A stretch of 64,000 bases of DNA from Symbiodinium sp. CCMP2592 (lineage: Eukaryota; Sar; Dinophyceae; Suessiales; Symbiodiniaceae): positions 417,501-481,500 of the forward strand of contig CAJNDT010004924.1 in NCBI GenBank assembly GCA_905221615.1, written 5' to 3'. Below, one piece after another: positions 1,926 to 47,216 of this stretch (position 1 is the stretch's first letter; each line of letters opens with the position of its first letter). The notes under the pieces are model-generated. The model ran no database searches and had not been told where the DNA came from. It saw only the letters and a program-made list of their open reading frames with translations. The position numbers were made by a program, and so were the translations under genes.

Positions 1926-2142
1926 GCCGCTATGGATCACAGCAGGCTGTGTAGCTTTGCTAACAAGGTTCTGGGTACCAACGCTAGAGGCTCGCAACGT
2001 GCCCCTTCTGCGAAGCTTAAGGGACCGTCCTCTTACTGAGCCATAGCTGTTCCCGGAGCCGCGTGTCGCTGTGATCTACCGGGTCCCAATTCCCGGGCCT
2101 CTGTCTGCAGTTATACAACCTTGGCATGAGGTAAGCGGTAGT

Positions 2143-2165
2143 GGTTTTCACCTTTTCCGCAGGGT
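2143..2165 (+). promoter_or_regulatory. Polypyrimidine tract and AG in the LINE 5' UTR (candidate splice or spliced-leader acceptor)
   Basis: TTTTCACCTTTTCCGCAG lies about 60 bases upstream of the ORF start at 2225. Dinoflagellate mRNAs receive a trans-spliced leader at such acceptors, so this could define the 5' end of the LINE mRNA. A GTAAGC 24-30 bases upstream would also allow a very short cis-intron. Functional use is inference. Confidence 0.3.
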
Positions 2166-2224
2166 GAAAGGAGTCGGTTCGAGTTCTCTCTTTCCGGCGA
2201 AACTAGCGGACGGCGCAATCGCCA

Positions 2225-5200
2225 ATGCACCAGCATTCATTTGAGAGCATTCGCAAGAAGGCCTTTCGCAAGGCTTGCAATAAGGTTCATAGAACACAAG
2301 AAAGCATCCCGTACCGGAATGGTACGTTGACGCCTGAACATCTGCGTCGCAGTGGACTCACCCCCCCCTCCCCTCCCCCCCTCCCAGTGCAGCCTAGCTC
2401 CACGATTTCTCCTTCAGGTCCCTCAGGTTTCTCCGCCAGTTTCCGCTCGCGCCCGAGAGGCGGTCGTGCCAGCAAGTCTCTTCGTGTTCTTTCCTGGAAT
2501 GCAGGGCACCTTGGCATGCAACAATGGGCAGAAGTGAAGACATGGCTTCGCACGGAGGCCAAGTCAGTCTGTGACATTCTTGTCCTTCAGGAAACCCACT
2601 GGAGTGAGACAGCAGAATTTGATGTCGAAGGCTGGCACTGCGTAAGCTCCGCCACAAAAGGGGCTGCTCGAGCACCTAAAGGTAAAGCCACTTCAGGGCA
2701 ACGCCCCAAGCAAGGCGCTGCCACGCAGCCGGCTGTTCACGACACAAGCCGAGCGGACGGCGTCATGGTTCTTCTCTCTCCGCAGATAGACAAGAAGAAG
2801 ATAAGATGGCGCGAGCAACGCCGGGGAAGGCTCATTCAGGTCATCTTCCCGTGGCTTGGGGCTCGTGTGCATGTACTAGCGGTTTACCAACATGCCTGGT
2901 CTTCTAAGAAGACTCCACAGCAGAACAAGGATGACCGCTCACACCTGCTCCGCGATCTGTCGGCTGCGATACGGGCCATTCCAGCGCGAGATACTTTTCT
3001 CTTGGCAGGAGACTTTAATGCTCGACTGACCCCGCAGGAGGGTCTGGTAGGTCAGTGTAGCACCAAGCCAGAGCAAACTCAGATGCAGGATGAATCGTTC
3101 CAAGCCTTAGTCTCCTCCCATCGGTTGGTAGCTCTTAACACATGGTCTAGTGGTGCAGGTCACACTTTCTTCCTGAATGGTCAGGGATCACAAATTGACT
3201 TCCTGCTCACTTCAGAAGCCTCGGCCAAGGGCCTGGCAAAGCAGTCTCGGCCGTGCAAGGATCTTCAGCTCGGCAAATGGAAGAGGGGCGGCCACCTTCC
3301 AGTCTTGGCTCAACTCAGACCCACCCAGCACTGGAATCTGCCAAAGCCTACTTGTCCTTCCACGACCTTTCATAAGGAAGCTCTAGAGACGGCTGTCCGT
3401 TCAGGTCTGCCAATAGCCGGTCGCATGCAAGACTGGGTGGGCCAGCGTCTGTCCTCTCGGACTCACACGCCTGATGAAGTTAATCAGGTACTGCTGGAGG
3501 CCTCTGCACTGTTTTTCCCCAAACCACGGCCTCAGCAAGCTCCTGAAACTGCTCAGCACCGTGCGACGCTGCGAATGTGGAGTCGAGTCGCTCATATTCG
3601 TTCTTTGCATGAGGACTCCATAACCACCTTATCCGACCTAGATCAGTCTTTGGAGGACCTGAATCGATGGCATAAGCAGGCTCTCTACTTAGCCAAGAAG
3701 GAACGACACCGAGCTTTCCAGGCTGAGGTCGATGAGGCGTGTGCCAGACACGATTCCTACATCGCACATAAGACCTTAAAGAAGCTCCGACCTTGGGAAC
3801 CCCAAACTAAGGCACAGCTTCAGGGACCGGATGGTCTGCTGTTGGACTCTACCTCCGAGCTCCGCCTGCTTAGAGACCACGTGGAACAGGTCTTTGCCAG
3901 ACATCCGCCACTCGCACACCAGGTGGACTCGCTGCCGGAAATCCCGGCTGGTCTGCTGGCCAAGCACATAGGCTCCATCAGACCGCACAAGGCGGTACCG
4001 CAAGGCTCTGCTCCGGCGGCTGCCTGGCGGCTCTGCTCGGCGGCTGCGGGAGAGGCGCTAGCAGCATCGCTGCAATCTCGGGGGCAACGCCCATTGCCGG
4101 CTGCTGAGGTACTTCAGCCGCCCTTAAAGGATGCTGACTTGTGTTTTATCCCAAAGCCTAACAAGCCGGCCACGAAGCCTGGCAATCTACGTCCCCTCGG
4201 CATCATTCGACCAGACGGCAAGGGCCTGGCGGGGGCTTGTAGAGATCAGCTGTCTCCCTACACGGCTGACTATCTTCGGGGTCTCCCACAATTTGCCTAC
4301 CAGCCACATCGCGGTCTTTCAGATGCCTTGAGCAGGGTCGTTGGTCATGTCACTCAGGTACGCAATAACTGCCAGGAGGCCCGACGAACCAGGCATCAGC
4401 TTCACTCGGGACGAACTCGTCCCCAGCTAGTAGGTGGCATCTGCTTTGCACTAGACTTGTCACAAGCCTTTGACATGGTGAGCAGAACAGACTTGCTTAG
4501 CACACTGCAGGAAGCGGGAGTCCCGCAAGACCTCATTGACCTAGTTGCCTCATTGCATGCTGGCAGTGCTTACACGTTTCGCACCCAGGGTGAAGAGGAC
4601 ACGGTCCAGTCCACTGCGGGCATTAAACAGGGGTGTAAGCTTGCCCCCACACTTTTTTCCATGCTTACGGGCACCATCTTCCGGGAGCTCATAGCTCTTG
4701 TTGGGGTTCGAGCCGTGGTGGACTACCTCACGGGCTACGCAGATGACCTTACGGTTCACCGTGACATCCACTCAATGGAGGACCTGGATCGCGCTCATGC
4801 TCTGATTGAGCAATTGTTGCAGTTGGTCCGTCGCCATGGATTTGCTGTCAACGGTGCAAAATGCACTGTTATGGTCAAACTCGAGGGCCAACAGGCGCAA
4901 CGCGCCATCTCCAAGCACACTTATTGGCGCACCGCGCCTGACGGAACCCGCCATAAGATGTGGAGACTGGGAGAGTCTAAGTCTCACGAGGGCTTTCCGC
5001 TGGTGACGTCCTTTAAGTATCTCGGCGTCATGCTCTCCTACTCCAACTTCGAGAAGGCTACTCTCAAGTTCCGGTTGCAGGAGGGCAATGTGAAATTGCA
5101 GCAGGTACGCCGCTTCGTTCACAACAGACGAACGGCGGGGCCTGCATCGCGGTTGCACATTTGGCATAGCACTGTCTGGGCCACAGTAGCCTCTGGATTG

Positions 5201-5644
5201 GTGGATGTGGGCTTGACCCTAGAGACAGCTAAACTGTTGCGGGCTTGGCACGCTCGCAAAATTCGAGCTGTCCTGAACAAGCCAGCGCACCTGACACACA
5301 TATCCACGGCTGACCTCTATGCCTCCCATGAGATCATGGACCCTGTCCGTAAGCTGCAGGCGCGACAGGCCAATCGTGTCAAGCGCTTAGGTGCTCGACG
5401 GCGGAAAACTCCTGCGGGGGACATCTCTTTAACCCAGCGCGCGCTTCTCCAGGCGGAGGCACTCTCTACTAGTTATGCAGACGTTCTGCAGCAACTTTCT
5501 AAGGACACATCACAGCAGGAGGCCCCCCCGTCCTTCGTGTGCCCGACGTGTGCTCAGGCCTTCGACACTGAGGTACAGGCAATTCCCTCAGATGAAGGGC
5601 TTAAAGGACCACTTGTTATCAGGTGCCTGCTCGGAGCCAGCTAG
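2225..5644 (+). CDS. LINE polyprotein: endonuclease and reverse transcriptase
   Basis: 1139 codons from an ATG. Residues about 85-365 form an apurinic-type endonuclease (EEP family) that nicks target DNA: N92 in LSWNAGHLG, E123 in LQETHW, D263 and N265 in AGDFNARL, D325 in SQIDFLLTS, and H357 in GGHLPV, where the usual SDH has a glycine for Asp. Residues about 630-900 are a reverse transcriptase for target-primed synthesis: FIPKPNKP and LRPLGI, then FALDLSQAFDMV (D744), GIKQGCKLAPTLFSML, and the catalytic YADD (838-841). The C-terminus enters a CPTC zinc finger at about 1105 and then runs out of frame to a stop at 5644; the rest of that finger is in the next frame. All catalytic boxes except the SDH variant look intact. 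Codon composition is GC-rich and even. No RNase H domain was seen. Confidence 0.93.
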   Translation: MHQHSFESIRKKAFRKACNKVHRTQESIPYRNGTLTPEHLRRSGLTPPSPPPLPVQPSSTISPSGPSGFSASFRSRPRGGRASKSLRVLSWNAGHLGMQQWAEVKTWLRTEAKSVCDILVLQETHWSETAEFDVEGWHCVSSATKGAARAPKGKATSGQRPKQGAATQPAVHDTSRADGVMVLLSPQIDKKKIRWREQRRGRLIQVIFPWLGARVHVLAVYQHAWSSKKTPQQNKDDRSHLLRDLSAAIRAIPARDTFLLAGDFNARLTPQEGLVGQCSTKPEQTQMQDESFQALVSSHRLVALNTWSSGAGHTFFLNGQGSQIDFLLTSEASAKGLAKQSRPCKDLQLGKWKRGGHLPVLAQLRPTQHWNLPKPTCPSTTFHKEALETAVRSGLPIAGRMQDWVGQRLSSRTHTPDEVNQVLLEASALFFPKPRPQQAPETAQHRATLRMWSRVAHIRSLHEDSITTLSDLDQSLEDLNRWHKQALYLAKKERHRAFQAEVDEACARHDSYIAHKTLKKLRPWEPQTKAQLQGPDGLLLDSTSELRLLRDHVEQVFARHPPLAHQVDSLPEIPAGLLAKHIGSIRPHKAVPQGSAPAAAWRLCSAAAGEALAASLQSRGQRPLPAAEVLQPPLKDADLCFIPKPNKPATKPGNLRPLGIIRPDGKGLAGACRDQLSPYTADYLRGLPQFAYQPHRGLSDALSRVVGHVTQVRNNCQEARRTRHQLHSGRTRPQLVGGICFALDLSQAFDMVSRTDLLSTLQEAGVPQDLIDLVASLHAGSAYTFRTQGEEDTVQSTAGIKQGCKLAPTLFSMLTGTIFRELIALVGVRAVVDYLTGYADDLTVHRDIHSMEDLDRAHALIEQLLQLVRRHGFAVNGAKCTVMVKLEGQQAQRAISKHTYWRTAPDGTRHKMWRLGESKSHEGFPLVTSFKYLGVMLSYSNFEKATLKFRLQEGNVKLQQVRRFVHNRRTAGPASRLHIWHSTVWATVASGLVDVGLTLETAKLLRAWHARKIRAVLNKPAHLTHISTADLYASHEIMDPVRKLQARQANRVKRLGARRRKTPAGDISLTQRALLQAEALSTSYADVLQQLSKDTSQQEAPPSFVCPTCAQAFDTEVQAIPSDEGLKGPLVIRCLLGAS

Positions 5645-7034
5645 GCTACAGGAGCTGGATGACGCGGCGCACCCTCCCTTGGATTCGCAGCATCAGCCCA
5701 GATTGCATCCCAGGCAGCAGCGCTTGCATGACACTCTGACAACACACACGGCTGTGGAGCTCGGACGATCTGATGAGTCTCAGGACCTTATGTCACATTG
5801 CTTGCTGTGTGGGTTCTGGACCCCGGACAATACCAAGCTCAAGTCTCACATCCGGCAGGCCCACAAACCTGAATGGGCGGCTCATGGCGCTACAGCTGCA
5901 ACTCAGAGCAGCAAATCAGGCCTGACCCTTGTCAAGGGCATGCCTTGCCCGTGCTGCCGCAAGCCTGTTACGGATAAGAGGCAGCATCCGGCACAATGTC
6001 CGATCCTTTTTCAGATTCTGTTTTATGACTTGGTTCATGCACTTTCCCGCTGCCAGGGCGGACCGTTACGCAGGTACATGCCAGCGGTTGGCACGACACA
6101 AGGCAACGCACCCACACGGGACGATACCACCGCTGTTGGAGCAACGCCCCAGACTCGCCAGGCAACGCCTGCAGGCCCCCTGCCACCGAAGTCAGGAACA
6201 GTAGAATCAAAGGACGGCGCGCTCGCTGCTCCTCGCTCGCTGCGCAACATCTCCAACTACTGCTATGTTAACTCAACGCTTTCGGCCCTGGTGCCGACGT
6301 GCATCTTGCTGGAGCACGGAGGGGCAAGCACCTCCCTCCATCAGGAAGTGGCTGATTCTGTCTCTGGTTCTCCTTTCACCCTGACTGCCTCTTTCACGCT
6401 TCGCCATCTTACTCCCGCTTGGCGCTATGATGGCCAACAACAAGATGCTTCGGAGTTTCTAGTGGCCTTATTTGCAGGCATTACCGCCTTTCCGATTGCA
6501 CGACCCTGGGAAGTCAGGGATGTAAACACTACTGAGGTCACCGATGCGGGAGGTCCGCTCGCTTTGCTGCCAGCTCCAACGACAGGTGGATCCCATGCAC
6601 TTCAGGAGCTGCTCTCTCGGTGGTCTGGCCAGCCGGTGCACACCGCCTTTCGAGGGCAGCAACGACTGGTGGTTCTCACAGTGGCGCGATTTGTTGAAGG
6701 CCGCAAGCTCAGCTATGCTGTCACTGGTCTGCACCACCCCCTTCAGCTCTCGCAGTGGGCCCCGACGGGCTCCGTACAACTAGAGAAAGGATGGGTTCAG
6801 TCCTGTATCTTCCACATAGGTGACACCCCGCACAGTGGACATTATCGCTCCCTCTGGAGGAGCAACCCCGATCAACCTTGGCTCAGCACGGACGATGGTC
6901 GTCCGTCGGTTCAGGCCTCAGATTCAGATCTCAGGCAGGCACGCCACGGCTGCTATGTGCTGTTCGTGCGACTTGGTTCAATACCGCACACAGCGGAGGC
7001 TGGCCCTATGCCAGTCCAAGTTTCAGATGATTAA
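5475..7034 (+). CDS. LINE C-terminal part: zinc fingers plus ubiquitin-specific protease (USP, peptidase C19) domain
   Basis: The frame is open from 5475, but real coding in it probably begins near 5580, where it completes the zinc finger started by the upstream ORF; the two are most likely one polyprotein split by a single-base change. In local numbering: a C2H2 finger at 109-130 (HCLLCGFW ... HIRQAH) and a C2HC finger at 158-175 (CPCC ... HPAQC). From 253 on it matches the USP family, cysteine proteases that remove ubiquitin: Cys box SLRNISNYCYVNSTLSAL with catalytic C263, GQQQDASEFL at 320-330, His box HSGHY with H456, and an Asp box STDDG at 471-475. Total domain length (about 250 residues) is short for a USP but all catalytic boxes are present. 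Substrate unknown; possible roles are protecting the element's RNP or acting on host ubiquitinated histones. No active-site loss is visible. Confidence 0.88.
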   Translation: MQTFCSNFLRTHHSRRPPRPSCARRVLRPSTLRYRQFPQMKGLKDHLLSGACSEPARLQELDDAAHPPLDSQHQPRLHPRQQRLHDTLTTHTAVELGRSDESQDLMSHCLLCGFWTPDNTKLKSHIRQAHKPEWAAHGATAATQSSKSGLTLVKGMPCPCCRKPVTDKRQHPAQCPILFQILFYDLVHALSRCQGGPLRRYMPAVGTTQGNAPTRDDTTAVGATPQTRQATPAGPLPPKSGTVESKDGALAAPRSLRNISNYCYVNSTLSALVPTCILLEHGGASTSLHQEVADSVSGSPFTLTASFTLRHLTPAWRYDGQQQDASEFLVALFAGITAFPIARPWEVRDVNTTEVTDAGGPLALLPAPTTGGSHALQELLSRWSGQPVHTAFRGQQRLVVLTVARFVEGRKLSYAVTGLHHPLQLSQWAPTGSVQLEKGWVQSCIFHIGDTPHSGHYRSLWRSNPDQPWLSTDDGRPSVQASDSDLRQARHGCYVLFVRLGSIPHTAEAGPMPVQVSDD

Positions 7035-7955
7035 GCTGAGGGTTCCCCTGAGGCCAGGGGCCCCTACTTCCCCTTGCAGGAAGGGGGCGACCTACTGGCT
7101 CTGTGGGACCGACCTGCCTACACGGCAGGGAGCAGGAACGCTGTTGTTCAGTTTTGCTGCTCAAGTCGTACAGCTGACGTAGCTCCACTACTCAGCGTTT
7201 GTGTGCAATAGCGGCCTATACCTGTCATGCTAGTCGGGCAACGCTCGCTGCTTTCCCAGAAAGGCAACGCCTGTCAGCAACACAGCTGACCAATGGCTGA
7301 AATCGGCTTTACAAACCCCCATTCTCGGCTCGAGAAGGGGGGTTTGTCCGAGGCCTAAAAATCAAGGTTTTGCAACCCCCCATTCTCGGCTCGAGAATGG
7401 GGGGTTGTCCGAGGCCCCCAAGCCATTGCCGGCAAGCCTGGCCTCTGGAGGGGAGTACGCCTCTTACGAATAAGGTTAGCCTTATTAGGCACAGTGTGCT
7501 TACCGCCAGGGTGTGCCACATCGTTCACCGATGCAATCTGCTTGCCCACAAAAGCGGAGCTGCCTCAGATAACAGCACTAGCAGCCGTTCCACATGCTCA
7601 TCACCTTTGCGACCTTACGGCCCATCGCCTTTGATTGAGAGTGACCATGAGTGGGACGCCACGCAACAGGCACTCTGAGTGACGGTCCCGAGGGGGTACG
7701 GCTCATCAATCATCGGTCCGTGGACATGGGACGCCATAGTCCACACTGAGGGTGACGGAGGGTTTCTCACCCACGCCTGAGACGCATGAACCGGCTTTTG
7801 AGGTAGCTTGTAGGGTAGCTCTCTTCACGGTAGCCTGTTTCAGCGCTTTCAGGCCCAGGCCCTTAGCATTTCTGCTCTCAGACCTTTGTTCAGGTGCAAA
7901 GGCAGTCTCACACGCCCGCAATGAGCAGAGCCCGCTCGCTCAGCGTCCAATAAAT
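7035..7955 (+). other. LINE 3' UTR
   Basis: No coding potential recognised. Begins with GC-rich self-complementary sequence (CCCTGAGGCCAGGGG near 7047), contains two tandem hairpins at 7311-7407, and ends with CCAATAAATAA before the TTG tract. In LINEs the 3' UTR is where the reverse transcriptase binds its template, so structure here fits that role by inference. Confidence 0.7.
7311..7407 (+). repeat. Two tandem stem-loops in the LINE 3' UTR
   Basis: First stem: 7311-7327 pairs with 7331-7347 (17 bp, one mismatch, loop GCT). Second: 7373-7388 pairs with 7392-7407 (16 bp, perfect, loop GCT). Both stems contain the ATTCTCG/CGAGAA core beside a C-run/G-run, and each is followed by TCCGAGGCC, so this is a 62 bp tandem duplication of one hairpin. 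Confidence 0.9.
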
Positions 7956-9150
7956 AATTGTTGTTGTTGTTGTTGTTGCTGATGTTGTCGTTGTTATAGC
8001 TATCTATTTGTTTCTGGTTCTGCTGGTGGCGGTGGTGGTGGTGGTGTTGCTGTTGGTGTTGTTGGTTTTCTTGTTGATGCTGGGGCTACGCTTGCGGTTG
8101 CGGTTGCTACTGCTGGTGTTGCTGTTGTTGGTTTGTGTTTGTGGTTAGCAGTTTGTTGTTGTCTGTTGTTGTTGGTCGTTGTTTGTTGTTGTTGCTCCTG
8201 CTGGTGGTGTTGTTGCCGTTGTCGTCGTGTGCTTTTTGGTGTTAGTTGTTGTTTGCTCTGTTTGTTTCTTTGTTCGTTTGTTTGTTTGTTTAAGCGTCAA
8301 AGTCAAAATGTTTGTTTGTTTGTGTGTCGTATCTGTTGTGTGTGTGTGTGTGTTGTGGGTCTGTGGGTATGGGTGTGTGTGTGTGTGTGTGTGTTGTTTG
8401 GTTGTTTGTTTGCGTGTTTGTTTGTTTCTTGCGTGGTTGTTTGTTGTTGGACATTGCTGGTTGTCGTTGGTTGTGGTTATTGTTCTTAGTTTTGGTATTG
8501 TTGTCGTTGTTTGTTGTTACGTGTTGGTGCTTGTTGTTTGCTGCTGGTTGTTGTTGTTTGTTGTTTTGTATGTGTGGCTCTGCATTTGCGTGTTGTTTGT
8601 TCGTTTGGTTCGTGTTTGCTTGGTGTTTGTTGTTTGGTTTTGGTTGTTGCTGTTGTTGTTGGTTTTTGTTGCCGGTTGTTCTTGTGTGTGTGGGGGGGGG
8701 GTTGTTTGGTGTTTTGCTGGTTATCATAGTTAATTGTTGGCAGTGGTTCTTGTTGGTGCGTCAGGTGCTATGTCTATGTTTTTGTTGTTTGTTGTGTGTT
8801 GTTGTTTGCTGTTGTTTGTCTTTTGTTGTTTGTTTGTTCGTTTCGTCGTTGTTGTTGTGATTGTTGATGATCCTGGTGCTGGTGCTGGTGCTGGTGCTGG
8901 TGCTGGTGCTGGTGCTGGTGCTGGTGGTAGCTGCCGCTGCTGCTTCTGCTGCTGTGGTTGGCGTTGGTGTGATGACTTGATGCATGTTTGTCGTTATTGA
9001 AGTTCTTGTTTGTGGTGCTTCGAGTCTTGTTGTTTGGTGTTTCTTGAATTGCTTGTTGATGTTCGCTGCTGGATAATATTGGCTCGTCGGTTGTGGTTTC
9101 GGTGCTTGTTGTTGTTGTTGGTGGTGGTGGTTGTCGTTCCCAGTGTCGAT
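7950..9150. repeat. Long TTG/TGTTTG-rich tract with a CTGGTG hexamer array
   Basis: Starts as pure TTG directly after the LINE, then grades into imperfect TTG, TGTTTG and TG runs (a TG run at about 8335-8395) and a nine-copy CTGGTG array at about 8873-8927. Long frames on both strands (poly-Leu/Val/Cys, or Asn/Gln on the minus strand) are artefacts of composition. No gene seen. Confidence 0.9.
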
Positions 9151-25599: not shown

Positions 25600-27290
25600 G
25601 CATATTCGGGGTGGGGGTTGGGGTGATCATTACAGTTGGCAAGATTCTGTGATCGAGGCCATTGACGACTGGCTGTTGCAGCTCTTGCATGTTCCTTACT
25701 TTACTATGACTGCAGAAGAAATCATTGAAGAAAGCATGCGAGCCTTCAAGCAGGCAGCCTCCCGTCGAAACTGGGCTTTTACCACCATGTGGAGACTGAA
25801 GCACGACAAGCAACTCCCTTGTACCTCTCCGCCGTTGCAATGGTCGTAGCTTCTCGTCCGCACTCCGTGAACTTCGGAGTTTAGAAGTTTCGCAGTTTCG
25901 CGAAAGCGGGATGGTATTCCGCAGCCTTCCCCACCCGGCGTCCCGGCGCTTTCGCTGCTACAAACCATCAGCACTCAGTCGTGTCTGAGACTTCTCACAG
26001 CCCGAACTTGAGCATTTTCGAGTCCCTCAGGTGATGGTCGTCACTGCCCTATTCCTGCGAGGAGACTGCGCAACTTGTCGCCAAAGCTGACCACTTGCGT
26101 TCACTCAACTAATTTTCCCCGCCGTCAGCTGTCACAGCAGCATTCCCAATTTCAGACGGCACTCCTGAAGGTCGTTCAAGTAACCTGAGCTTCAATCTGC
26201 GGACTGGCCAAGCCAACGTTCATCATACTCAACAATATACTCAACCACAGCGTTTCGTCATCATGCAGTATCTTGTGCTTCCAAGACTGCGAGTGAACAA
26301 ATAGGTGTTGACAGCAAGGTGAATTCCCGACTGAAAGATCTCATCGTTGGCACTGCATCTATGGGTTTTGCTTGGTGTGCATCTTGCCTGCAATCGAGAT
26401 GCAAAGAGCGCATGATATGCAGGTGGCCTACGTAGTTTCCAGCGTCCAGGAGCTCTGAAGCTTCAGCTGAATCGTTCATGCAAATCGGCCTGTGTCGGGC
26501 CTGCTAAATTGTAGGTGGCAAGGCATTGTTCGCTGCAGGCTGCAGGAGGGCATCGTTTGGATTTGTCCAATGATGGCTAAGATTCATTTTTTTTGCCGCA
26601 GGCGGAAGGCCTCCGTGCTTCGCCGTTTCAGGTTCTTTTCGGCACCCGCGCGTTCTTTGACTCTTGGAGCTTCCTCGAGGTGGGTTAACTCCCACGAGAG
26701 ACAGACTAAGAGAGACTTGAACATATTTGACGGCTGCGGCTAATTCAGCAGTATTCGCCGCCAGGCAAAGAAAATAACACCTGCAACTTGACTCAATGAT
26801 TCTGAAAGACCATCGCTTGCACGGATGATGGAGGAACTCGGACTGTGAGATTTCATGAGCAAGAACTGAGCCCCCGCTGATTCGATGCTTCCTGTCTCGA
26901 ACACCTTGCGAAGACGAGGCCACGATTGAGGGACGAGTTCTGTTGGCAATGGCATCGTCCTTGTTCAGCTGAGCCTGGGAGATGTATTGGTTCATGTTCA
27001 TGGTTCATGGCCCATGGCGATGCAGGTGCCGGTGACTGCTGGTGCTTGCAAACAAACGTTGGAAGAGTCTTGAAGACTCTGAACGGTGAGTAATTAAACA
27101 GAAAGCAAGGGTCAGAAGTAACATCCTTTCAAGCGGTGTGGATTTCCTTCTGGTGCCCTGGCATGTAGCGAAAAGGTCATTCACAGACGCACCGCAGCAC
27201 GGTAGAACATATCTTCAATCTGCCCATATCGGCGATTGTTCGATGGTCATGATGGCGCCCAGTAGCTTCTCATGATATCCGAGACACCCG
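25600..27290. other. Unassigned sequence
   Basis: No recognised domain on either strand. A plus-strand block at 25640-25848 is open but shows no motif. Confidence 0.35.
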
Positions 27291-38053: not shown

Positions 38054-38361
38054 TAGGAAAAGCCAGAAGCAGCGATTGAGGTCGCATGCCGTGTGCAGTT
38101 GTTTGCGAGCTCTTGTTACGGCTGTTGCGTTGGTTTAAGGGGAAGGCTGCGGAACAAACACCCCTTGGCCATGTAAAGTGAGCACAGCCGAAGATCGTGC
38201 ACAAATCACGATGTGTACTGAACTGTCTGCAGTGAGATCACCAATTGTACAACTTAGATCTCGAAGTGCATACATGTTGCGTTGCGTGCAAAAGATTTCA
38301 AGTAGGTTCAGGCTGCAATGGACGAGCCTTCGGCTTCTACTGCGGTAAGACCTGTCCTTCA
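38054..38361 (+). repeat. Copia C 5' LTR
   Basis: Begins TAGGAAAAGCC, ends CCTGTCCTTCA. Differs from the 3' LTR at GCCGTGTG versus GCCGCGTG and AATTGTAC versus AATTGCAC. It contains the gag ATG (38318) and, 26 bases later, GGTAAGA, a good splice-donor match. Primer binding site after it is not clear (GGTTATGAGCGC). Confidence 0.95.
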
Positions 38362-39958
38362 GGTTATGAGCGCCCAAGCGGGAAGCGACGCTGGTGCTCC
38401 GCTACAGAATGGTGTGATGCCTGGAGCTCCTCGCGAAGAAGGAGTGGAGGCGGAAACCGGAGCTCGTGGCTCGGGTCAGACGAATCCCGTCGGATCCGAA
38501 CCCGGGCAAGAAGCGGGTCAAGGAGGAGGAAAGAGCGGTGGGGCTGCAGAGCAGGCACGGTCCTCACCAGCCGCTCCTACGTTGGCTGGCAACGATGTGA
38601 ACCAAGACGGAGGACGTGCGGAAGCCCCGGCTACAGGTGTCATCGAGCAGGGATTCGAGACTCGCGCCGACATTGGCGGCCAAGCCACCACAAGCGGAGG
38701 GGAATCAGCTGCTCGTGATTCTGGATTGCGGGGTGGAGCGCTTCCAAGAGATGGTAGTGGAGAAGTCTTGGCTGGAGATTACCATACGCCGAGATCAACG
38801 AGATCATTCGAACCGATTGGAAGCGGCCCGAGACCAGTGTTTCAAGGTCACCTACCTGGGTGGGTGACTCGCCTTGGAGAGTTTTTGAAGGCGCCAGCAG
38901 CGCAATGGATGCCGAGTCCTATGCCATCGCCCCCGAGACCGCGTCTACTGAATATGAATGTGGACGAACAGCATGTGGATGCTGCCGAGCTGCAGCGGCA
39001 GGGTGTTGGACCTGGAGCAAGAGAAGGGTTTTTTAGGGTTTATGGTAATTCTGTTTACCCTAACCAACATACACCGCCCAGCAGCAGCAGCATTCCGGCA
39101 GAGGCGATTCAGGCAGAAGTGCAGCGGCAACTTGGAGGGCTGCTGGACAAGTTGCAGACCATGGAGGGTGAAAATATCAGGCTGCATGAGCAGCTTGCCC
39201 AAGCGCACCGGGAACTTCAAGCTCAACCCCTTCGTGATGTTGCCCCTGTTCCTGAGCCTGTAAGAGAACCCCGAACAGATCCTCCTCGTCAGCAGGCTCG
39301 TGATTCGGAACCTCCTCGTGATCCACCGCGGGCGGCTGAAGGGCGTCCAGATCCGTGGAGAGATCCTCTCGGCGCATTGTGGGAGGAGCTGCAGTCTCGA
39401 AGGACTGCTCCATCAGCTGAAGTACAACCTGTACCACAACCTCAAGCAAGTGCCGAAGGGACCCCAGAAGACCCTACAACAGCAATTTTGGAAGCCTTGA
39501 CAAAGAACCTGACTAGTCTTCAAGAACTACAAGCCAAGTCCCTGAAAAGGGATGACTCGCCGGAGCAGGTCAAATCCAACGCCTCAGCTCTCCCGCCTCT
39601 TCCAGGGCCAGAGGGCACCAATGCGGGCATCGTCTTCCAGGACTGGTTGGCGCAAGTGGCTGTTCCGATGCAGGATTTGTCAGCTTCTTCGGGCACTTGG
39701 TGGGCTGGCGTTCTAAGCCTTGTCAGGGAAGCTTATGCTACGTGGTTGGCGGCAACACCCTTAGAAAGGCTTCAGCTTGAACCTGTGGGTCATGAAGTTT
39801 GGACTTCAGCTAAGTGGACGCGAGTAAACTCGAGAGCGTGCTCGCTGTGCTTTTTCGATTGCACACCTGCTATCAACCTGGTGGTGCGAACGAGCGCTCA
39901 GCAGTGCTTGGGAGTTTGCAGAGCCCTACGGCACCCACAACAGTGGATGAGGCTTTGA
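38318..39958 (+). CDS. Copia C Gag, first part
   Basis: 546 codons from an ATG inside the 5' LTR. The first 15 residues are LTR-encoded. Followed by a long low-complexity region rich in Gly, Glu, Ala and Pro, a stretch EGFFRVYGNSVYPNQHTPPS, a probable coiled coil near 268-300 (AEVQRQLGGLLDKLQTMEGE) and a Pro/Arg-rich segment. From about 425 it takes on the capsid-like part of Copia Gag (FQDWLAQVAVPMQDLSASSG, WWAGVLSLVREAYATWLAAT, KWTRVNSRA). The last 40 codons are probably out of frame, because the Gag pattern continues in the overlapping -1 frame (39814 onward). Gag packages the RNA into particles. Confidence 0.85.
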   Translation: MDEPSASTAVRPVLQVMSAQAGSDAGAPLQNGVMPGAPREEGVEAETGARGSGQTNPVGSEPGQEAGQGGGKSGGAAEQARSSPAAPTLAGNDVNQDGGRAEAPATGVIEQGFETRADIGGQATTSGGESAARDSGLRGGALPRDGSGEVLAGDYHTPRSTRSFEPIGSGPRPVFQGHLPGWVTRLGEFLKAPAAQWMPSPMPSPPRPRLLNMNVDEQHVDAAELQRQGVGPGAREGFFRVYGNSVYPNQHTPPSSSSIPAEAIQAEVQRQLGGLLDKLQTMEGENIRLHEQLAQAHRELQAQPLRDVAPVPEPVREPRTDPPRQQARDSEPPRDPPRAAEGRPDPWRDPLGALWEELQSRRTAPSAEVQPVPQPQASAEGTPEDPTTAILEALTKNLTSLQELQAKSLKRDDSPEQVKSNASALPPLPGPEGTNAGIVFQDWLAQVAVPMQDLSASSGTWWAGVLSLVREAYATWLAATPLERLQLEPVGHEVWTSAKWTRVNSRACSLCFFDCTPAINLVVRTSAQQCLGVCRALRHPQQWMRL

Positions 39959-42900
39959 CATGGTTGCGATCATGGCCGCGATGGCTTCAGAGATGCAAGG
40001 ATTTGAATATGATGGTTCCTGATGGGACGATCCTTGCGAGAGCTTTGACTATGGTGACTGCGAAGTTCGTGGCAGACAACGCTGACACACACTTCCGCAC
40101 GCAACTGTTGCGGTCAAGCCTGAGAATATATGGACAACCCAAGATCGCGGACGTCATCAAGTACCACCAGCACCTGCAGGCCGAGGTCGAGTCTATGATA
40201 GCAGCTAGGACGGTAGCGCCCACACCGGTGCCAGCAATCAAGGTTATGACTACCCCTACTACAAGCTCCTCAACCCCGTCAGGCAGTGCTTCAAAGCCCC
40301 CGTGCAAATATTTCCTGAAGCAGGGCGGTTGTCGGCGCGGCCAACGCTGCCCCTATGTGCACGACATGAACAGCGTGAGCAAGGCAGAACGAGCACGAAA
40401 ATGCCTAGTATGTGGAAGTGAAGAGCACCGACAAAAGGATTGCCCGACGAAGACCCCCAAGCACAGCGGACGACCCAGTGGAGGACAGGGATTCCAAGCG
40501 GCAGGTTCGACTTCACCTTCGACTACATCGCCAACGAATGCGCCAAAGGTCACAAGCGTGGAGCCGGAGGGAGAAACATCTCCTGTAGCTACCTCGCAGG
40601 TGATTGCGGGAGAGCCTGTCTGGACCTTGGAAACGTTGCTTCAGGCAGCGGCGAAGGTTGCTGGAGCGCAGCCTGCAAACCCTAAGGCTCCATCGGTCAA
40701 TGTGATGGCCTTGAAGAGGACGGTGGGGTCGTCTGATGAGTTGGCTATGTTTGCGTTGATTGACTCAGGTGCCACCCATGCGCTACGGAGATCCCTATCC
40801 CAGGAGGAGTGGGAAGAGGCAGAGCCCGTGACTGTGAATCTGGCGGGCGGCGAGTCTATTGGTCTTCGCATGAACGCTGCGGGCACGATCCTGGTGCCAA
40901 TCAATTCGAGGACTTCGGCGATGTCGACAGGGCCGATTGTGCCATTGGGAGCCCTGATCAATCAGTTGGGGTACACCATGACATGGGGGAAAACCAAGTG
41001 CAAGCTAGAGGGCAAGAACGGAGAGGTGATGGTTCTTCGTGTTCGTGAAGGTTGTCCCGAGGTCACCGAGCAGGAAGCCTTGAAGTTGATTTCTGAGTTG
41101 GAGGATGTAAGGCTACAGGAGCTCCGGGAAAACACTCGTGATACGCGGTCTAGAGTGAAGGCAGCGGCGCTTGCGATGGAGAGAACCTGGTTTGACTACT
41201 TGATCTCGTACATCGACGGCGGTCTCTCCTCGCAGGCCTTGAAAGCAGTGGAGAGCGCGCCTTTTCTCCAAGAGGTTCCGCGAGAGTGTAAGGCAGGCCT
41301 CGTGGATGCAGTGCCGGAAGCGAATGGATGGCAAGCCTTGAAGGGTTTGGAGCATCTGAATCGAAAAACCAGAAAGCGACTATGGACCTCAAGCAAGTGG
41401 TTGGTGCATTTGTATGCGGGAAAAAGGGAGCGGCGTGATTTGCAGCACTTGGAGGGCCACGGGTACACGATCCTGGAGTTGGACATCGAGAGGGGTCGAA
41501 CCCATGATGTGTTGAGATCAAGTACCTGGCGAGCGCTGGAGTGGGGAGCAAGGATGGGCAAGATCGGAGCAATCATTGGAGGACCACCACAGACCACATT
41601 CATGATTTCGCGACATGTTGTGGGAGGTCCCGAGCCAGTGCGGTCCAATGAGTATTTGTTCGGGAACTGGCCAGGCCAATCGGACAGTGACGTTTTCAAG
41701 GTCAACCGGGAGACGCAGCTGATTACGAGGATGGTGTATCTTCATGCTCTTGCTACCGCGGGAAGAACAAGGGCACACTATGATCCGACTGTCAGTCGGG
41801 AAGTTGCCTTTCTTCTAGAACATCCTCGTGATCCTCGTGGGTATTTGAAGTTTCAGGACCCGCTGTACCCGGATGTAGTGAGCTTGTGGAGGACGTCGTT
41901 GTGGTCAGAGTATGCATTGGAAGCAGGGTTGCATGCCTATAACTTCGACATGGCGGCTTTGGGAAAGGCATGGACGCGCCACACCACGATTGGCACCAAT
42001 CTACATCTTCGGCATCTGGATGGGCTTCGTCTACGGTGGCACTCGGATGGGCCGGTTCGAGAGCGAGCGCCGGCATGTGTGTGGCCACAGGAGTTTTATG
42101 AGCACCTGGTCATCGCGTTGCGGGACTGGGGAAAGATCCCCAGGATGCTGAAGATGAGTGCAGAGCAGTGGCGTGACCATGTACGACGGGGACATCTTCC
42201 TTTCCGAGCGGACTGCTCTGTATGTGTTCAGGCAGGCGGCACAGGCCGACGCCACTCAAGGGTTGAACACCCATCAGCCTTTGTACTGTCGGCTGATTTG
42301 TCTGGCGTGGTGAAGGTGGGCGGTGTTGACCCAGATGGACGAGGAGCCTTTCCCCGTCCTTTCAAGTACATCTTCGCTGCAAAGTTGCGGGTGCCGAAGT
42401 CCTTCGTGGAAGATGGTCGAGGTGTTTGGCTTGAATATGATCCTGGTGAAGTGAGCAAGGAGGACTATGAGGAGCAAGATGATGGGTTGGCTCCTGTTGA
42501 AGATGGCGTTGGAGCTCGTGTTCCAGAAGATCCACCAGCGGATGGAGGTGAAGATTGTGAACCTGAGCTCAAAGAGGTGCCGAGGCGAGATCCCGATGAG
42601 GACAGTGACCTTGGTGGCCCCGAGCTTGTGAACCTCATCTTCGCGTGCGGTCTGAAGGACGACAAAGCGCCCACTGTCCTGGAGGCCATTCAGGACGTGA
42701 TCCTCTATTGCCGAGCGCTGAATATACCAGTGCTTCGATTCCATACCGATAGAGGAATGGAGTTTCGGGCCAGAGCGACGAAGCAATGGCTCAAGGGAGA
42801 GGGCATCCGAGTGACTACTTCGGAGGCCGGGGTCCACCAGACCAATGGAACAGCGGAATCAACAATAAGATGGCTGAAGCAAAGGGCGAGGACGTTACTG

Positions 42901-43905
42901 CTATCTGCAGGACTACCGCAACGACTATGGCCGTCGGCTATCAGCGCGGCAGCGTCAATGCAAAGGGGCGACGTTCTTGGGTTTGAGCCGAAGCTTGCAG
43001 CCCCGTACGGTTCCAAAGTGCTGGTTCGTAAGCGTCATTTGGATGGACCAAAGCTAGATGATCTGGCACCAAGATGGCTTTCAGGAGTATATGTGGGACT
43101 TTCTGATAGTCTTAGCAAGGGCCACTTGGTGTACGTGAATGACAGTGAAGGAGAGCGCTTTGTACACACGTTGCATGTCCGAGCTGGCTTACACGATCCA
43201 GGACCCCCCGACGAGGAAGTCCACGCGGATCTACCTGAGCCTCCTGAGCGTCGTGTGCGAGGAAAGGCTTCTGGATCCGGGGATGTTGTTGCAGTTTCCA
43301 AAGCTCAGGTGATTGATGAAGCAGAGTTTCGGCAGAGGGCAGAGACTCTAGAGCAGAACTGGAGTTTGGATGCAGCGGAAACCCTGGTTCGGGATGTTGC
43401 GCGTCTACTTCCTGATGACGAGCGAGTCTATGGAATGTTCCGTCATGGAGGACGAATTGGCGTGACCAAGTCCACTGTGGAGAGGCCGTGGCTTGCTCGA
43501 GTTTTGAATCGGGTGATGTTGGAGAGAGCCCCTGATGCGGAGTACGCCGCAGTCTTTGTGTCCATCAATAACGAGCGCGAGGTGCACATTGATCGCAACA
43601 ATGCTCTTGGGGCTATGAATCACTTGCTCCCGATAAGCATGCCGAGACGAGGAGGGGAGCTATGGATGGAGCTGCGCGATGGCGACGTGGTCTCTGGAAA
43701 GGTGATTGAGTTGGTTTCCGGAGAAGGACGGGCCAGATATGGATGCGCATTTCCATTGCAAGAAGGGAGAGTGTTTTCCTTCGACCCTCACCGCCGTCAT
43801 GCTGTAATGCCTTGGAAAGGTGAGCGCATCGTCATTGTGGGCGCTACACTCCTGCCTTATTGTCCTCACTTACACGACTGGACCGGGAATTGTTGTGGGC
43901 TCTAA
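39814..43905 (+). CDS. Copia C Gag C-terminus, protease, MTase-like, integrase and 2OG-oxygenase polyprotein
   Basis: 1363 codons beginning with GTG, not ATG, so expression probably depends on a frame change from Gag (-1 relative). In order: Gag C-terminus (YQPGGANERSAVL); CCCH finger C-x8-C-x5-C-x3-H at 164-182; CCHC knuckle C-x2-C-x4-H-x4-C at 197-210; aspartic protease LIDSGATH near 315; a Rossmann region with LVHLYAGKRERRDL near 530, LELDIERG and IIGGPPQTTFMISR (589 onward), resembling cytosine methyltransferases but with Gln at the catalytic Cys; integrase with HHCC-like start near 789 and D829, D979, E1015 (exact D-x35-E); then a 2OG-Fe(II) oxygenase-like domain with VHIDRNN (H1258, D1260), GGELWMEL, distal H1329 and R1338 in HAVMPWKGER. 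The frame ends just before the final strand, which continues in the next ORF. Confidence 0.9.
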   Translation: MDASKLESVLAVLFRLHTCYQPGGANERSAVLGSLQSPTAPTTVDEALTWLRSWPRWLQRCKDLNMMVPDGTILARALTMVTAKFVADNADTHFRTQLLRSSLRIYGQPKIADVIKYHQHLQAEVESMIAARTVAPTPVPAIKVMTTPTTSSSTPSGSASKPPCKYFLKQGGCRRGQRCPYVHDMNSVSKAERARKCLVCGSEEHRQKDCPTKTPKHSGRPSGGQGFQAAGSTSPSTTSPTNAPKVTSVEPEGETSPVATSQVIAGEPVWTLETLLQAAAKVAGAQPANPKAPSVNVMALKRTVGSSDELAMFALIDSGATHALRRSLSQEEWEEAEPVTVNLAGGESIGLRMNAAGTILVPINSRTSAMSTGPIVPLGALINQLGYTMTWGKTKCKLEGKNGEVMVLRVREGCPEVTEQEALKLISELEDVRLQELRENTRDTRSRVKAAALAMERTWFDYLISYIDGGLSSQALKAVESAPFLQEVPRECKAGLVDAVPEANGWQALKGLEHLNRKTRKRLWTSSKWLVHLYAGKRERRDLQHLEGHGYTILELDIERGRTHDVLRSSTWRALEWGARMGKIGAIIGGPPQTTFMISRHVVGGPEPVRSNEYLFGNWPGQSDSDVFKVNRETQLITRMVYLHALATAGRTRAHYDPTVSREVAFLLEHPRDPRGYLKFQDPLYPDVVSLWRTSLWSEYALEAGLHAYNFDMAALGKAWTRHTTIGTNLHLRHLDGLRLRWHSDGPVRERAPACVWPQEFYEHLVIALRDWGKIPRMLKMSAEQWRDHVRRGHLPFRADCSVCVQAGGTGRRHSRVEHPSAFVLSADLSGVVKVGGVDPDGRGAFPRPFKYIFAAKLRVPKSFVEDGRGVWLEYDPGEVSKEDYEEQDDGLAPVEDGVGARVPEDPPADGGEDCEPELKEVPRRDPDEDSDLGGPELVNLIFACGLKDDKAPTVLEAIQDVILYCRALNIPVLRFHTDRGMEFRARATKQWLKGEGIRVTTSEAGVHQTNGTAESTIRWLKQRARTLLLSAGLPQRLWPSAISAAASMQRGDVLGFEPKLAAPYGSKVLVRKRHLDGPKLDDLAPRWLSGVYVGLSDSLSKGHLVYVNDSEGERFVHTLHVRAGLHDPGPPDEEVHADLPEPPERRVRGKASGSGDVVAVSKAQVIDEAEFRQRAETLEQNWSLDAAETLVRDVARLLPDDERVYGMFRHGGRIGVTKSTVERPWLARVLNRVMLERAPDAEYAAVFVSINNEREVHIDRNNALGAMNHLLPISMPRRGGELWMELRDGDVVSGKVIELVSGEGRARYGCAFPLQEGRVFSFDPHRRHAVMPWKGERIVIVGATLLPYCPHLHDWTGNCCGL

Positions 43906-46889
43906 GTTTTCCGTTGCCCTTGGTGGACGAAGATCATCCGGCTGAAATCTTCATCAACGCATTGTCGGTGTCTTCGGTGAAGCCGGAAAAAGAAATTGAA
44001 CGGGAAGCACGGCCCCTTCGAGGAGGAGGCTGGCAGGAAACAATACCCACGTCAGATGGCGACTACCTGTTCAAGTGCGACTTGTCAATAGCATCAAAGC
44101 CGGTGAGTGATCATGGCTCACTTGCTCCTCCTGGAGGCGGACAACAATGCGAGCACACCGTCGCCCGTGAAGAGCAGTGGGAGGACTGGGAGATGCATTT
44201 GGTGTTGGATGATACCAATGAGCCGGTAAGCACAGCAGCTTTGTCTTCGAGTCGCAGTGCGAGCCCATCTCTTCGGAAGGCGGAGGTCACCTACACTGAT
44301 GGCATCGAGGAGATCTTAGCGAACTTAAGCTCCCCTGTTTCCGCAGTGTACACGGTGAATCCGAAGGACGTGCTTGCTGTGTTTGAGAAGTGGATCCCGT
44401 CTTTGAAGAAGGAGGTTAACACGCTAGACCACGCAGTGGAAAAGGTGATGGGTGACGATTCTCAAGTTCGAGACGACTTGAACTCCGGAAGGGGACAGTT
44501 GATTCCTATGAAGGTCGTGTACACGATCAAGCCACCAGACCCTCCGACCGAGGAGGAGGCGCCCGCAGAGCTTTTCAAGCGCAAATCGCGCATTGTTATC
44601 TGTGGGAACATGGCGACGCATAGCCCGTCTGAGGTGTTCGCGAGCACTGCCCCTGCGGAAGTGGTTAGAGCAGCTATAGCATTGGCTCGTTTCTTCAACT
44701 GGAATCTTGGGGCGATTGACATCGTGGCGGCTTTCTTGCAGACCCCTTTGCGAGCAGTGAAGGGGGCGCCGCTAGTCTATGGAGTGCCACCCAAGGTGCT
44801 TGTGAGAGCTGGGTTAGCGAAGCCAGGCGAGTTGTGGAAGTTGACCCATGCAGTTTACGGCCTACAAGAGAGTCCGAAGCTTTGGGGCGCTTACCGAGAC
44901 ACTTTGCTGGCGCAAATCCAGTTGGTGTTCGATGGAAAGCGAGTGACCCTGATGCAAGGGCGTGTGGAGCCGTCGTGGTGGTCGATACTACAGGATGGCT
45001 CAGTGCTGATTGGCATCCTTGTCGTGTATGTAGACGACCTTCTTCTATGCGGGAGGACTGAGCTCATCAAGGAGTTGGCTGCCGCTATCAAGGCGGTATG
45101 GAGGACGAGTCCACTTCAGCTTGCAACAGATGGTGAGATCAGGTTCCTGGGCATTGAAATCTCGCTCACTAGCCAGGGTTTCGCGTTGTCCCAGAGAGCC
45201 TACATCGAGGAGCTTCTGCGAATCCATGAGATGACCCCGAAGCGCAAGGATTTAGTTCCTGTGGCTAAAGAGCTGGCAAGCTTCGTTGCGGCAGAGGACG
45301 AGGCGCCTGCCAATGAGGCCGAGATCCGTGCAGCTCAACAGATCGCCGGGGAGTTGTTGTGGATCAGCCAACGGACTAGGCCGGACATTGCTTTTGTATG
45401 CTCGTTGGTGGGATCGCTTGCAACACGGGCTCCAAGGCGTGCTGTGGAAATCGGGGAGAAGACCCTGGGATACCTTCAGAGGACCATAGGACGTCAGCTG
45501 CTATATGAAGGTGGCGTTCCTTATTTGACCGGGTTCGTGGACGCGTCGTTTGCCCCAGATGCTAGTCGGTCACACACGGGTTGGATTGTGTTGTTAGCCG
45601 GGAACGTGATCGCATGGAGATCGTCGAGGCAGTCTTGCATCAGTTTGAGTACAGCAGAAGCAGAGCTAGAAGCAGCAGTAGAGGGCCTTGTGGCGCTGCA
45701 AGGAGTTCAAGCTCTGTTACATGATATTGGGGTGACTTCGCTTCAGCTTCAAATGCACTCTGATAGCACTTCAGCCTTGGCGATTGCAAGGGGATCCTGC
45801 AGCTGGAGGACCAGACATCTGCGGTTGAAGAGTTCCTGGATTGGTGAACTTATTGCCAAAGGGACTGTGGAGTTCAACCATTGCAGTGGAGAAGTCCAAC
45901 CGGCGGATCTTTTGACCAAGCCATTGTCTTCAGCGAGAATGAAGGCGTTGAGTGGCCTTATCGGTTTGATTGAGGACCCGCGTCTACCTGGTGGCAACGA
46001 TTCGGAGGAAGTTCAGGGTGAAGTTCGCACCAGCATTCCAAGCAGCAGCAGCAGTCACACCCCTAGCCCCATCCCTAAAGTGTTAGTAGCTTTACTGGTG
46101 CTGGCGCAAGCAGTTTCTGGTGAGCGTGTTACTGATGAGTATGGAATAGTAGCTTATGGTAGCAGCGTGTCGGTCGACTATGGCTTGCTAACCTGGATGC
46201 TACTGTGGCTTTTGGTGTTGCTGGCTGTTATGTCTTGGGAAGCTTTGAAGTGGATTGCTTGGATTGTCTACGATAGGGCATCACCGGGTGCAAGTGCAAG
46301 GCGTTTGAGAAGGCTGCAGCGGCTAAGGGATGCTACGTCCGAGGCGATCCAGAGGGAAGTTTCTGTAAGGCTAGGGACGGGTCCCGAGCGGCGCGCTCGA
46401 GACGCTCGCCGAACTCCTGCAGAGCAGCAGGCTTCGCAACCAGGTGAGGAATCCAGACGATCGAGGAGCGATCCCCCGCGTGGTCAGGATCCGAATGCAG
46501 AGGAAAGGATGAATCTGCTGCGAAGATTGGCGCGTGGGACAAAAGAGCAGGTAGATGCCGCTGTTCAGACGGCAGCATTCTCGCCTGTGCAAGCTCCTGG
46601 AACGAGAGTGATCTTGCGCTATGTTCATGAGCCACCGGAGCAAGTGTTTGTGGTGCCTGACAATGAATGCTTTCACGTGTACGAGGATTGCTACGCCTTC
46701 CGGCATCGTGGAACTCAGGATCGAGTGCGGCACCGCAGACTGTGTCAGTTTTGCAGCAACAGAGCAGCAGATGATCCTGACAAGACACCGGACTATGGCC
46801 GTGACCTTGAGAGAGCGCAGGAGTATGAGAGAGTTTTCAATACTACTCTTCGAGTTTCTGGACAGAGCTCACGTGTGCCCTCCGACTGA
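43860..46889 (+). CDS. Copia C reverse transcriptase, RNase H and membrane/Cys-His tail
   Basis: 1009 codons starting with TTG; no early ATG, so probably reached by a -1 frame change from the upstream ORF. The first residues (DRELLWALSFPLPLVDE) look like the end of the 2OG domain. RT at about 165-490: RIVICGNMA, AIDIVAAFLQTPL with the first catalytic Asp, LTHAVYGLQESPKLW, and YVDDLLLCG (Y390-D393). RNase H about 490-700: QQIAGELLWISQRTRPDIAF, FVDASFAPDASRSHTGWIVL, STAEAELEAA, HSDSTSALAIARG. After it come two hydrophobic segments (VLVALLVLAQAVSG; then TWMLLWLLVLLAVMSWEALK), a basic stretch, and a C-terminal Cys/His cluster (CFHVYEDC ... RRLCQFC). A membrane segment after RNase H is unusual for Copia; function unknown. 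Confidence 0.92.
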   Translation: MSSLTRLDRELLWALSFPLPLVDEDHPAEIFINALSVSSVKPEKEIEREARPLRGGGWQETIPTSDGDYLFKCDLSIASKPVSDHGSLAPPGGGQQCEHTVAREEQWEDWEMHLVLDDTNEPVSTAALSSSRSASPSLRKAEVTYTDGIEEILANLSSPVSAVYTVNPKDVLAVFEKWIPSLKKEVNTLDHAVEKVMGDDSQVRDDLNSGRGQLIPMKVVYTIKPPDPPTEEEAPAELFKRKSRIVICGNMATHSPSEVFASTAPAEVVRAAIALARFFNWNLGAIDIVAAFLQTPLRAVKGAPLVYGVPPKVLVRAGLAKPGELWKLTHAVYGLQESPKLWGAYRDTLLAQIQLVFDGKRVTLMQGRVEPSWWSILQDGSVLIGILVVYVDDLLLCGRTELIKELAAAIKAVWRTSPLQLATDGEIRFLGIEISLTSQGFALSQRAYIEELLRIHEMTPKRKDLVPVAKELASFVAAEDEAPANEAEIRAAQQIAGELLWISQRTRPDIAFVCSLVGSLATRAPRRAVEIGEKTLGYLQRTIGRQLLYEGGVPYLTGFVDASFAPDASRSHTGWIVLLAGNVIAWRSSRQSCISLSTAEAELEAAVEGLVALQGVQALLHDIGVTSLQLQMHSDSTSALAIARGSCSWRTRHLRLKSSWIGELIAKGTVEFNHCSGEVQPADLLTKPLSSARMKALSGLIGLIEDPRLPGGNDSEEVQGEVRTSIPSSSSSHTPSPIPKVLVALLVLAQAVSGERVTDEYGIVAYGSSVSVDYGLLTWMLLWLLVLLAVMSWEALKWIAWIVYDRASPGASARRLRRLQRLRDATSEAIQREVSVRLGTGPERRARDARRTPAEQQASQPGEESRRSRSDPPRGQDPNAEERMNLLRRLARGTKEQVDAAVQTAAFSPVQAPGTRVILRYVHEPPEQVFVVPDNECFHVYEDCYAFRHRGTQDRVRHRRLCQFCSNRAADDPDKTPDYGRDLERAQEYERVFNTTLRVSGQSSRVPSD

Positions 46890-46899
46890 CGTCGAGGCC

Positions 46900-46908
46900 A
46901 AGGAGGAG
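46900..46908 (+). other. Copia C polypurine tract
   Basis: AAGGAGGAG directly before the 3' LTR; primes plus-strand DNA synthesis in LTR retroelements. Confidence 0.7.
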
Positions 46909-47216
46909 TAGGAAAAGCCAGAAGCAGCGATTGAGGTCGCATGCCGCGTGCAGTTGTTTGCGAGCTCTTGTTACGGCTGTTGCGTTGGTTTAAGGGGAAG
47001 GCTGCGGAACAAACACCCCTTGGCCATGTAAAGTGAGCACAGCCGAAGATCGTGCACAAATCACGATGTGTACTGAACTGTCTGCAGTGAGATCACCAAT
47101 TGCACAACTTAGATCTCGAAGTGCATACATGTTGCGTTGCGTGCAAAAGATTTCAAGTAGGTTCAGGCTGCAATGGACGAGCCTTCGGCTTCTACTGCGG
47201 TAAGACCTGTCCTTCA
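46909..47216 (+). repeat. Copia C 3' LTR
   Basis: 308 bp, two differences from the 5' LTR. Its internal ATG (47173) opens a frame that reads into the flanking ATTACT array. Confidence 0.95.

Follow-up and report, generated by a model that had tools for sequence, protein, structure and literature searches.

Non-LTR retrotransposons of the LINE-1 type (APE) carry an endonuclease (EN) and a reverse transcriptase (RT) in one protein, and the NeSL and Utopia LINEs bear, in addition, an Ulp1-like cysteine protease (accessible part of PMC4640811). Domains of the OTU and Ulp1 families have been described in Ginger1 (C-terminal), Mutator and Helitron (OTU) elements, together with a Trichomonas transposase_11 protein that has a Peptidase C19 domain (sections of PMC2836005 at hand). 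Moreover, SymbioLINE-Dnmt and SymbioDIRS-Dnmt3 are Symbiodinium retrotransposons with a captured cellular enzyme kept under selection (excerpts of PMC5890265).

The LINE analysed here lies in a 64,000-nt stretch of the Symbiodinium sp. CCMP2592 genome (hereafter, the window). Its family profile matched LINE-1 ORF2p PDB chains (E 1e-40), but, compared with LINE-1-type elements, it adds a block of four zinc fingers and a ubiquitin-specific protease (USP, family C19), it sits in (TTG)n, and some copies (L024-L027) have a second small downstream ORF. The NeSL and Utopia elements likewise combine target specificity with a ubiquitin/SUMO-kind protease on the LINE protein; however, in the part of PMC4640811 covered, their Ulp1 domain is N-terminal and accompanied by a restriction-like endonuclease, whereas the present protein has a C-terminal USP and an APE endonuclease. 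No Ulp1 domain was found in the protein of the window or of the intact copy L010, for which Pfam gave UCH and Exo_endo_phos, placing the element outside NeSL/Utopia. The Ginger1, Helitron and Trichomonas proteins show deubiquitinase-type domains on transposases as here on a LINE, that of Trichomonas being even a C19 domain, but they belong to DNA transposons and, save for the Trichomonas protein, to other protease families (PMC2836005, in part). In SymbioLINE-Dnmt the enzyme is a DNA methyltransferase encoded by an ORF upstream of the RT ORF, unlike the USP, which is within the RT protein (PMC5890265, in part).

A whole-word search of PMC5890265 returned none of the terms ubiquitin, protease, peptidase or USP, the portion available of PMC6338049, on accessory domains in retrotransposon proteins, leaves ubiquitin unmentioned, and the portions of PMC9412976, PMC7789003 and PMC11453091 contain nothing on USP-bearing LINEs. 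The titles and abstract openings listed, a scope with few subscription papers and preprints, likewise yielded no such element. Within the literature searched, the accessory enzyme of this LINE is new, and its C19 domain is the first on a retrotransposon that we could find.

Layout, copies and insertion target

The features of the window copy are given in Table 1. EN (PF03372) and RT (PF00078) were found by Pfam within one ORF in the window, in L010 and in two deeper families (L032 and L035, the EN of L035 being slightly below the cutoff).

Table 1. Features of the LINE copy in the window (positions are those of the window).
Feature	Position	Strand	Remarks
Whole LINE copy	1926..7953	+	Edges from comparison with other copies; (TTG)n-like DNA on either side
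First part of ORF: Met 2225, N-terminus, EN, RT, start of zinc finger 1	2225..5575	+	
Frame holding first part of ORF	2207-5644	+	Natural frame lost after ~5575
AP-type endonuclease	2489..3220	+	PF03372 (Exo_endo_phos), E 4e-13
Reverse transcriptase	4148..5032	+	PF00078 (RVT_1), E 4e-23; GYADD box 4733-4747
Remains of zinc finger 1 (C2H2) and zinc finger 2 (C2HC)	5540..5630	+	Joined through 113-nt loss
Zinc finger 3 (C2H2)	5799..5864	+	
Zinc finger 4 (C2HC)	5946..5999	+	
Ubiquitin-specific protease domain	6228..6977	+	Pfam UCH, predicted structure, alignment
USP residues	Asn 6246, Cys 6261, QQDASEFL 6438-6461, His 6840, Asp-Asp 6891	+	
3' UTR	7035..7953	+	Strong predicted RNA hairpin ~7311-7412
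(TTG)n at 3' flank	7954..8010	+	(TTG)n-like DNA before 1926 too

The window copy lacks 113 nt between positions 5574 and 5575, where all 28 other loci compared (24 distinct copies) have the longer stretch. As a result, what is left of zinc fingers 1 and 2 is fused and the frame shifts, which is why RT and USP of this copy lie in different frames. Splicing was rejected as its source, as the edges of the missing stretch are not splice-like by eye. When folded, positions 7300-7430 of the 3' UTR gave -71.8 kcal/mol (z -8.2), and the predicted hairpin might serve as an RNA signal that the RT recognises. The dinoflagellate spliced-leader motif (21 nt, with up to 3 substitutions) had no match in the window or in the loci compared, a result that is uninformative.

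A search of the assembly returned at least 87 match rows to the element, 68-100% identical, 80 of which were stop-free inside the match and 28 of which belonged to frames open over 1,635 aa or more; these counts are lower bounds, and at least 6 of the 87 rows are second pieces of copies already counted. Comparison of loci showed a multicopy element with common edges. In particular, EN, RT, zinc fingers and USP formed one uninterrupted frame of 1,635-1,690 aa in 17 of the 21 loci L009-L029, a non-random sample mostly chosen for a long frame in the assembly search. The four exceptions were L011 (N run in the frame), L022 (one stop), L028 (shortened USP) and L029 (broken frame). In addition, the very start of the ORF is lost in L019, and L010 and L015, whose flanks are identical, possibly represent a single insertion.

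Downstream of the USP ORF, L024-L027 present a second ORF of ~215 aa (L027:5297-6103), none being seen in the window subfamily. It gave a single Pfam row far below the cutoff, hence no known family, and a low-confidence structure model (pLDDT 63.8), and it was matched by two of the 106 database proteins described below, P0036 (S. microadriaticum) and P0068 (Symbiodinium CCMP2456).

Regarding the insertion sites, the adjoining 60 nt contained at least 30% of TTG units in 18 of the 19 distinct copies read at the 5' edge and in 14 of the 15 read at the 3' edge, and only 0.08% of 7,706 60-mers from the window (10001-64000) reached the same threshold. This count leaves aside L015 as the duplicate of L010, L001-L008, the 5' edges of L011 and L019 and the 3' edges of L024-L029. 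The exceptions were L014 (5' edge, 0.25) and L021 (3' edge, 0.10, but with 82% T+G). Immediately ahead of the 5' edge, a few near-constant bases could belong to the element, which is unlikely for the variable repeat beyond them. With both flanks being (TTG)n-like, a target-site duplication is indistinguishable from the repeat. Overall, the flanks point to a microsatellite-targeted LINE.

Conservation of the protease domain

The first-pass annotation had proposed that this LINE encodes a USP (C19) domain in a frame ending at 7034, with the catalytic Cys at codon 6261 followed by QQDASEFL, His and Asp boxes. The frame is real (5433-7034), the Cys is where it was claimed and the remaining boxes were all located; Pfam, structure prediction, the other copies, selection and the fusions found elsewhere agree on the domain. 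The frame matched Pfam UCH (PF00443) with E 3e-7 and 30.7 bits, above the curated cutoff of 23.9, and scores of 26.0, 72.8 and 63 bits were obtained for L010, L032 and L035, respectively. Among distant relatives, P0039 was above the cutoff, P0034, P0043, P0045 and P0022 were below it, and P0040 had no match. The USP fold was kept in the predicted structure.

The USP-type boxes (Cys, QQD, GHY, Asp and the oxyanion Asn) are present, with single exceptions in distant members. Across 13 aligned LINE proteins, C1390, Q1449, D1451 and G1582-H1583-Y1584 (L010 numbering) are invariant, as are the ligands of zinc finger 3 (C1236, C1239, H1252 and H1257) and C1285, C1288 and C1302 of zinc finger 4, whose H1298 is nearly so. 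The Cys appears in 21 out of 21 LINE-type rows and GHY in 19, the misses (P0013 and P0014) being damaged or cut models. The fold and catalytic boxes are common to the cellular USP30, USP12/46, USP35, USP21 and USP2; however, the LINE domain is short (~250 aa), only 13-24% identical to them in structural alignments and fused to an RT, and that of L010 lacks the CxxC pair by eye.

As to relatives in databases, the zinc-finger/USP query found 18 proteins, the RT query 30 and the family alignment 82, which together made 106 distinct proteins. The USP profile matched 42 of them and the RT query 93, with both matches in 31, so that fusions like the one first noticed in the window do occur elsewhere. 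The remaining 62 of the 93 RT-matching proteins had no USP, many being visibly cut gene models. P0041 and P0057 stop about where the USP would begin, and P0044 continues for ~300 aa beyond the RT match with neither zinc fingers nor USP. These three proteins, as well as P0042 and P0064, gave no USP match. It should be noted that the USP profile drew on 16 sequences, among them 13 database proteins that it then recovers, which is circular; a second profile made without P0034, P0039, P0040, P0043 and P0045 recovered all five of them (E 5e-37 to 8e-14, in a small database).

The USP-LINE proteins are 24-50% identical to L010 and retain zinc fingers followed by the USP. Four fingers precede the USP, by pattern, in 9 of 13 proteins, the exceptions being P0034 and P0021 (three), P0017 (partial, two) and P0045 (more than four). 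The family-alignment search scored the 7,995 candidates with the most common words, and P0040, P0043 and P0045, although members of the query, are absent from its rows; therefore, the score drop from 335 to 117 bits, below which 12 proteins had no USP, marks no clade edge. The seven named RT relatives are all from Symbiodinium (S. pilosum, S. microadriaticum, S. natans and strains CCMP2456 and KB8), with a partial USP in P0036 and P0068 and none in the other five; these relatives agree with a dinoflagellate origin of the window. RT and USP trees of 17 proteins were concordant on two close groups and left the deep nodes open. Judging from these alignments, the USP is kept across a deep divergence of the LINE clade.

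Selection was estimated by the Nei-Gojobori method in six between-subfamily pairs, which are non-independent, since L024, L025, L026 and L028 are close. The resulting w values are approximate because dS is near saturation, and ranged from 0.11 to 0.17 for the USP, from 0.03 to 0.05 for the RT and from 0.02 to 0.05 for the EN (where computable), and they were 0.16 and 0.20 for the spacer ahead of the USP in the two computable pairs. Between close copies, the USP gave 0.35 (L024/L025) and 0.50 (L024/L028, for part of the domain owing to the shortened USP of L028). These estimates indicate a constrained USP, under purifying selection between subfamilies, yet evolving faster than the polymerase, and the quicker evolution may be plain weak constraint. 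Many copies have the conserved Cys, His and Asp, and the purifying selection, proposed as a check on the initial observation.

Protease domains on other elements of the genome

Scanning the assembly for UCH yielded at least 148 matches, all stronger than the USP of the window, 15 of which were inspected. Two of them, L032 (C3768:200900-209100) and L035 (C578:109700-118200), combine Exo_endo_phos, RVT_1 and UCH (E 4e-20 and 4e-17, respectively) in single frames of 2,670 and 2,719 aa, and are deeper USP-LINE families with a long open stretch ahead of the endonuclease. Another two, L036 (C1007, the match also listed as L030) and L037 (C994, also L033), encode proteins (1,631 and 1,835 aa, respectively) in which a USP at the N-terminus (UCH 3e-24 and 5e-18) is combined with Helitron_like_N (6e-7 in L036; 3e-5 in L037, under the cutoff) and an AAA/Pif1-type helicase. 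By USP similarity alone, L043, L044, L045 and L046 were nearest to the LINE type and L031, L034 and L042 to the Helitron type; L038, L039 and L041 received no assignment to either, and L040 had no match.

The USP thus appears on two unrelated classes of mobile elements within one genome. In the USP tree, 17 LINE rows fell on one side (80/91) and five Helitron-type plus two other rows on the opposite one, with moderate support and long branches; three of the 17 LINE rows (L044-L046) and three of the five Helitron rows (L031, L034 and L042) were placed by USP similarity alone, and 'host' for L038 and L039 is a label rather than a finding. This tree is in keeping with separate acquisition of the LINE and Helitron USPs, though no proof of it. 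The frame break of the window copy, the (TTG)n target, the further USP-LINE families and the USP-Helitrons all go beyond the first-pass annotation.

Recurring frame lengths among the UCH matches listed suggest a multicopy USP-Helitron family. On contig C994 (24117-62957), pairs of UCH matches with frames of 593 and 1,837 aa, ~3 kb apart, occur at least three times, the one at 27078 being L037. The window also contains a Copia-type LTR retrotransposon (38054-47208) inside an AT-rich 12-nt tandem array, with terminal repeats of at least 300 nt that are 99% alike; a CCCH zinc finger shares one of its frames with a weak rve, and the following frame has RVT_2.

Possible roles of the protease

The USP is almost certainly an integral part of the LINE protein, and it is predicted, with good confidence, to be catalytically active. 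The preferred reading, to which we give a probability of roughly 0.55, is that of a target-specific LINE with one long EN-RT-4xZnF-USP protein, in which the USP would be a cis-acting deubiquitinase. Fused to the RT polypeptide, the USP would strip host-added ubiquitin off the protein or RNP of the element, which would thereby be spared proteasomal turnover or ubiquitin-dependent disassembly and would last for the time it needs to nick a (TTG)n tract and to prime reverse transcription at that site. That such protection in cis is the main role of the USP is put at somewhat short of even odds, and nothing in the sequence names a substrate. Both roles suggested by the first-pass annotation, evasion of ubiquitin-mediated turnover and activity at sites of insertion, would fit.

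A role in trans at the nick was ranked as a close second, nearly as likely as protection in cis, although unlikely when taken by itself: the USP would remove ubiquitin from chromatin proteins or from PCNA- or FANCD2-like factors of replication or repair, and would thereby let target-primed reverse transcription (TPRT) run to completion instead of being dismantled. Dinoflagellate chromatin is not known to be bulk-nucleosomal, which makes histones less attractive as the substrate. The Helitron parallel fits a role in DNA repair as well, and such a role was proposed for OTU and Ulp1 domains in transposons (PMC2836005, in part); however, the structural ranking showed no preference for USP1, and no direct link to any repair factor was found.

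It is improbable that the USP fold serves for binding instead of catalysis or acts on another modifier (SUMO, NEDD8 or ISG15-like), as loss of the Cys or His in some lineages would be expected of a domain used for binding alone, in contrast to the near-complete retention of both in the LINE-type rows. A chance-captured passenger with no function would agree with a USP evolving faster than the RT and with the higher w of close copies, but this reading was rejected as very improbable in view of the low w between subfamilies, the mostly stop-free match rows and the fingers and USP conserved in distant families. Finally, two neighbouring genes or a chimeric assembly, as the different frames of RT and USP in the window copy might suggest, were rejected as next to impossible given the single frames in copies on many contigs and the RT-USP fusions among database proteins, so the USP is no chance neighbouring host gene.

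Returning to the cis-acting deubiquitinase, the domain suggests that the element edits or resists the protein-tagging (ubiquitin) system of its host. Dinoflagellates have an unusual DNA packaging and large, repeat-rich genomes, and, to our knowledge, little is known about how they restrain mobile elements. The conserved LINE deubiquitinase and the Helitron parallel predict that transposition is limited by ubiquitin attached either to element proteins or to repair factors. The USP is well suited to testing this, being compact and having one catalytic Cys, and insertion into (TTG)n could readily be turned into an integration assay. More tentatively, ubiquitin editing might be something that transposition in these dinoflagellates generally requires, for which the LINE clade and the Helitron-type elements each took a USP. 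If true, there would be an undescribed ubiquitin-based host restriction of mobile elements, or a ubiquitin-gated repair step acting against them, and the faster-evolving USP domain would make an arms race visible.
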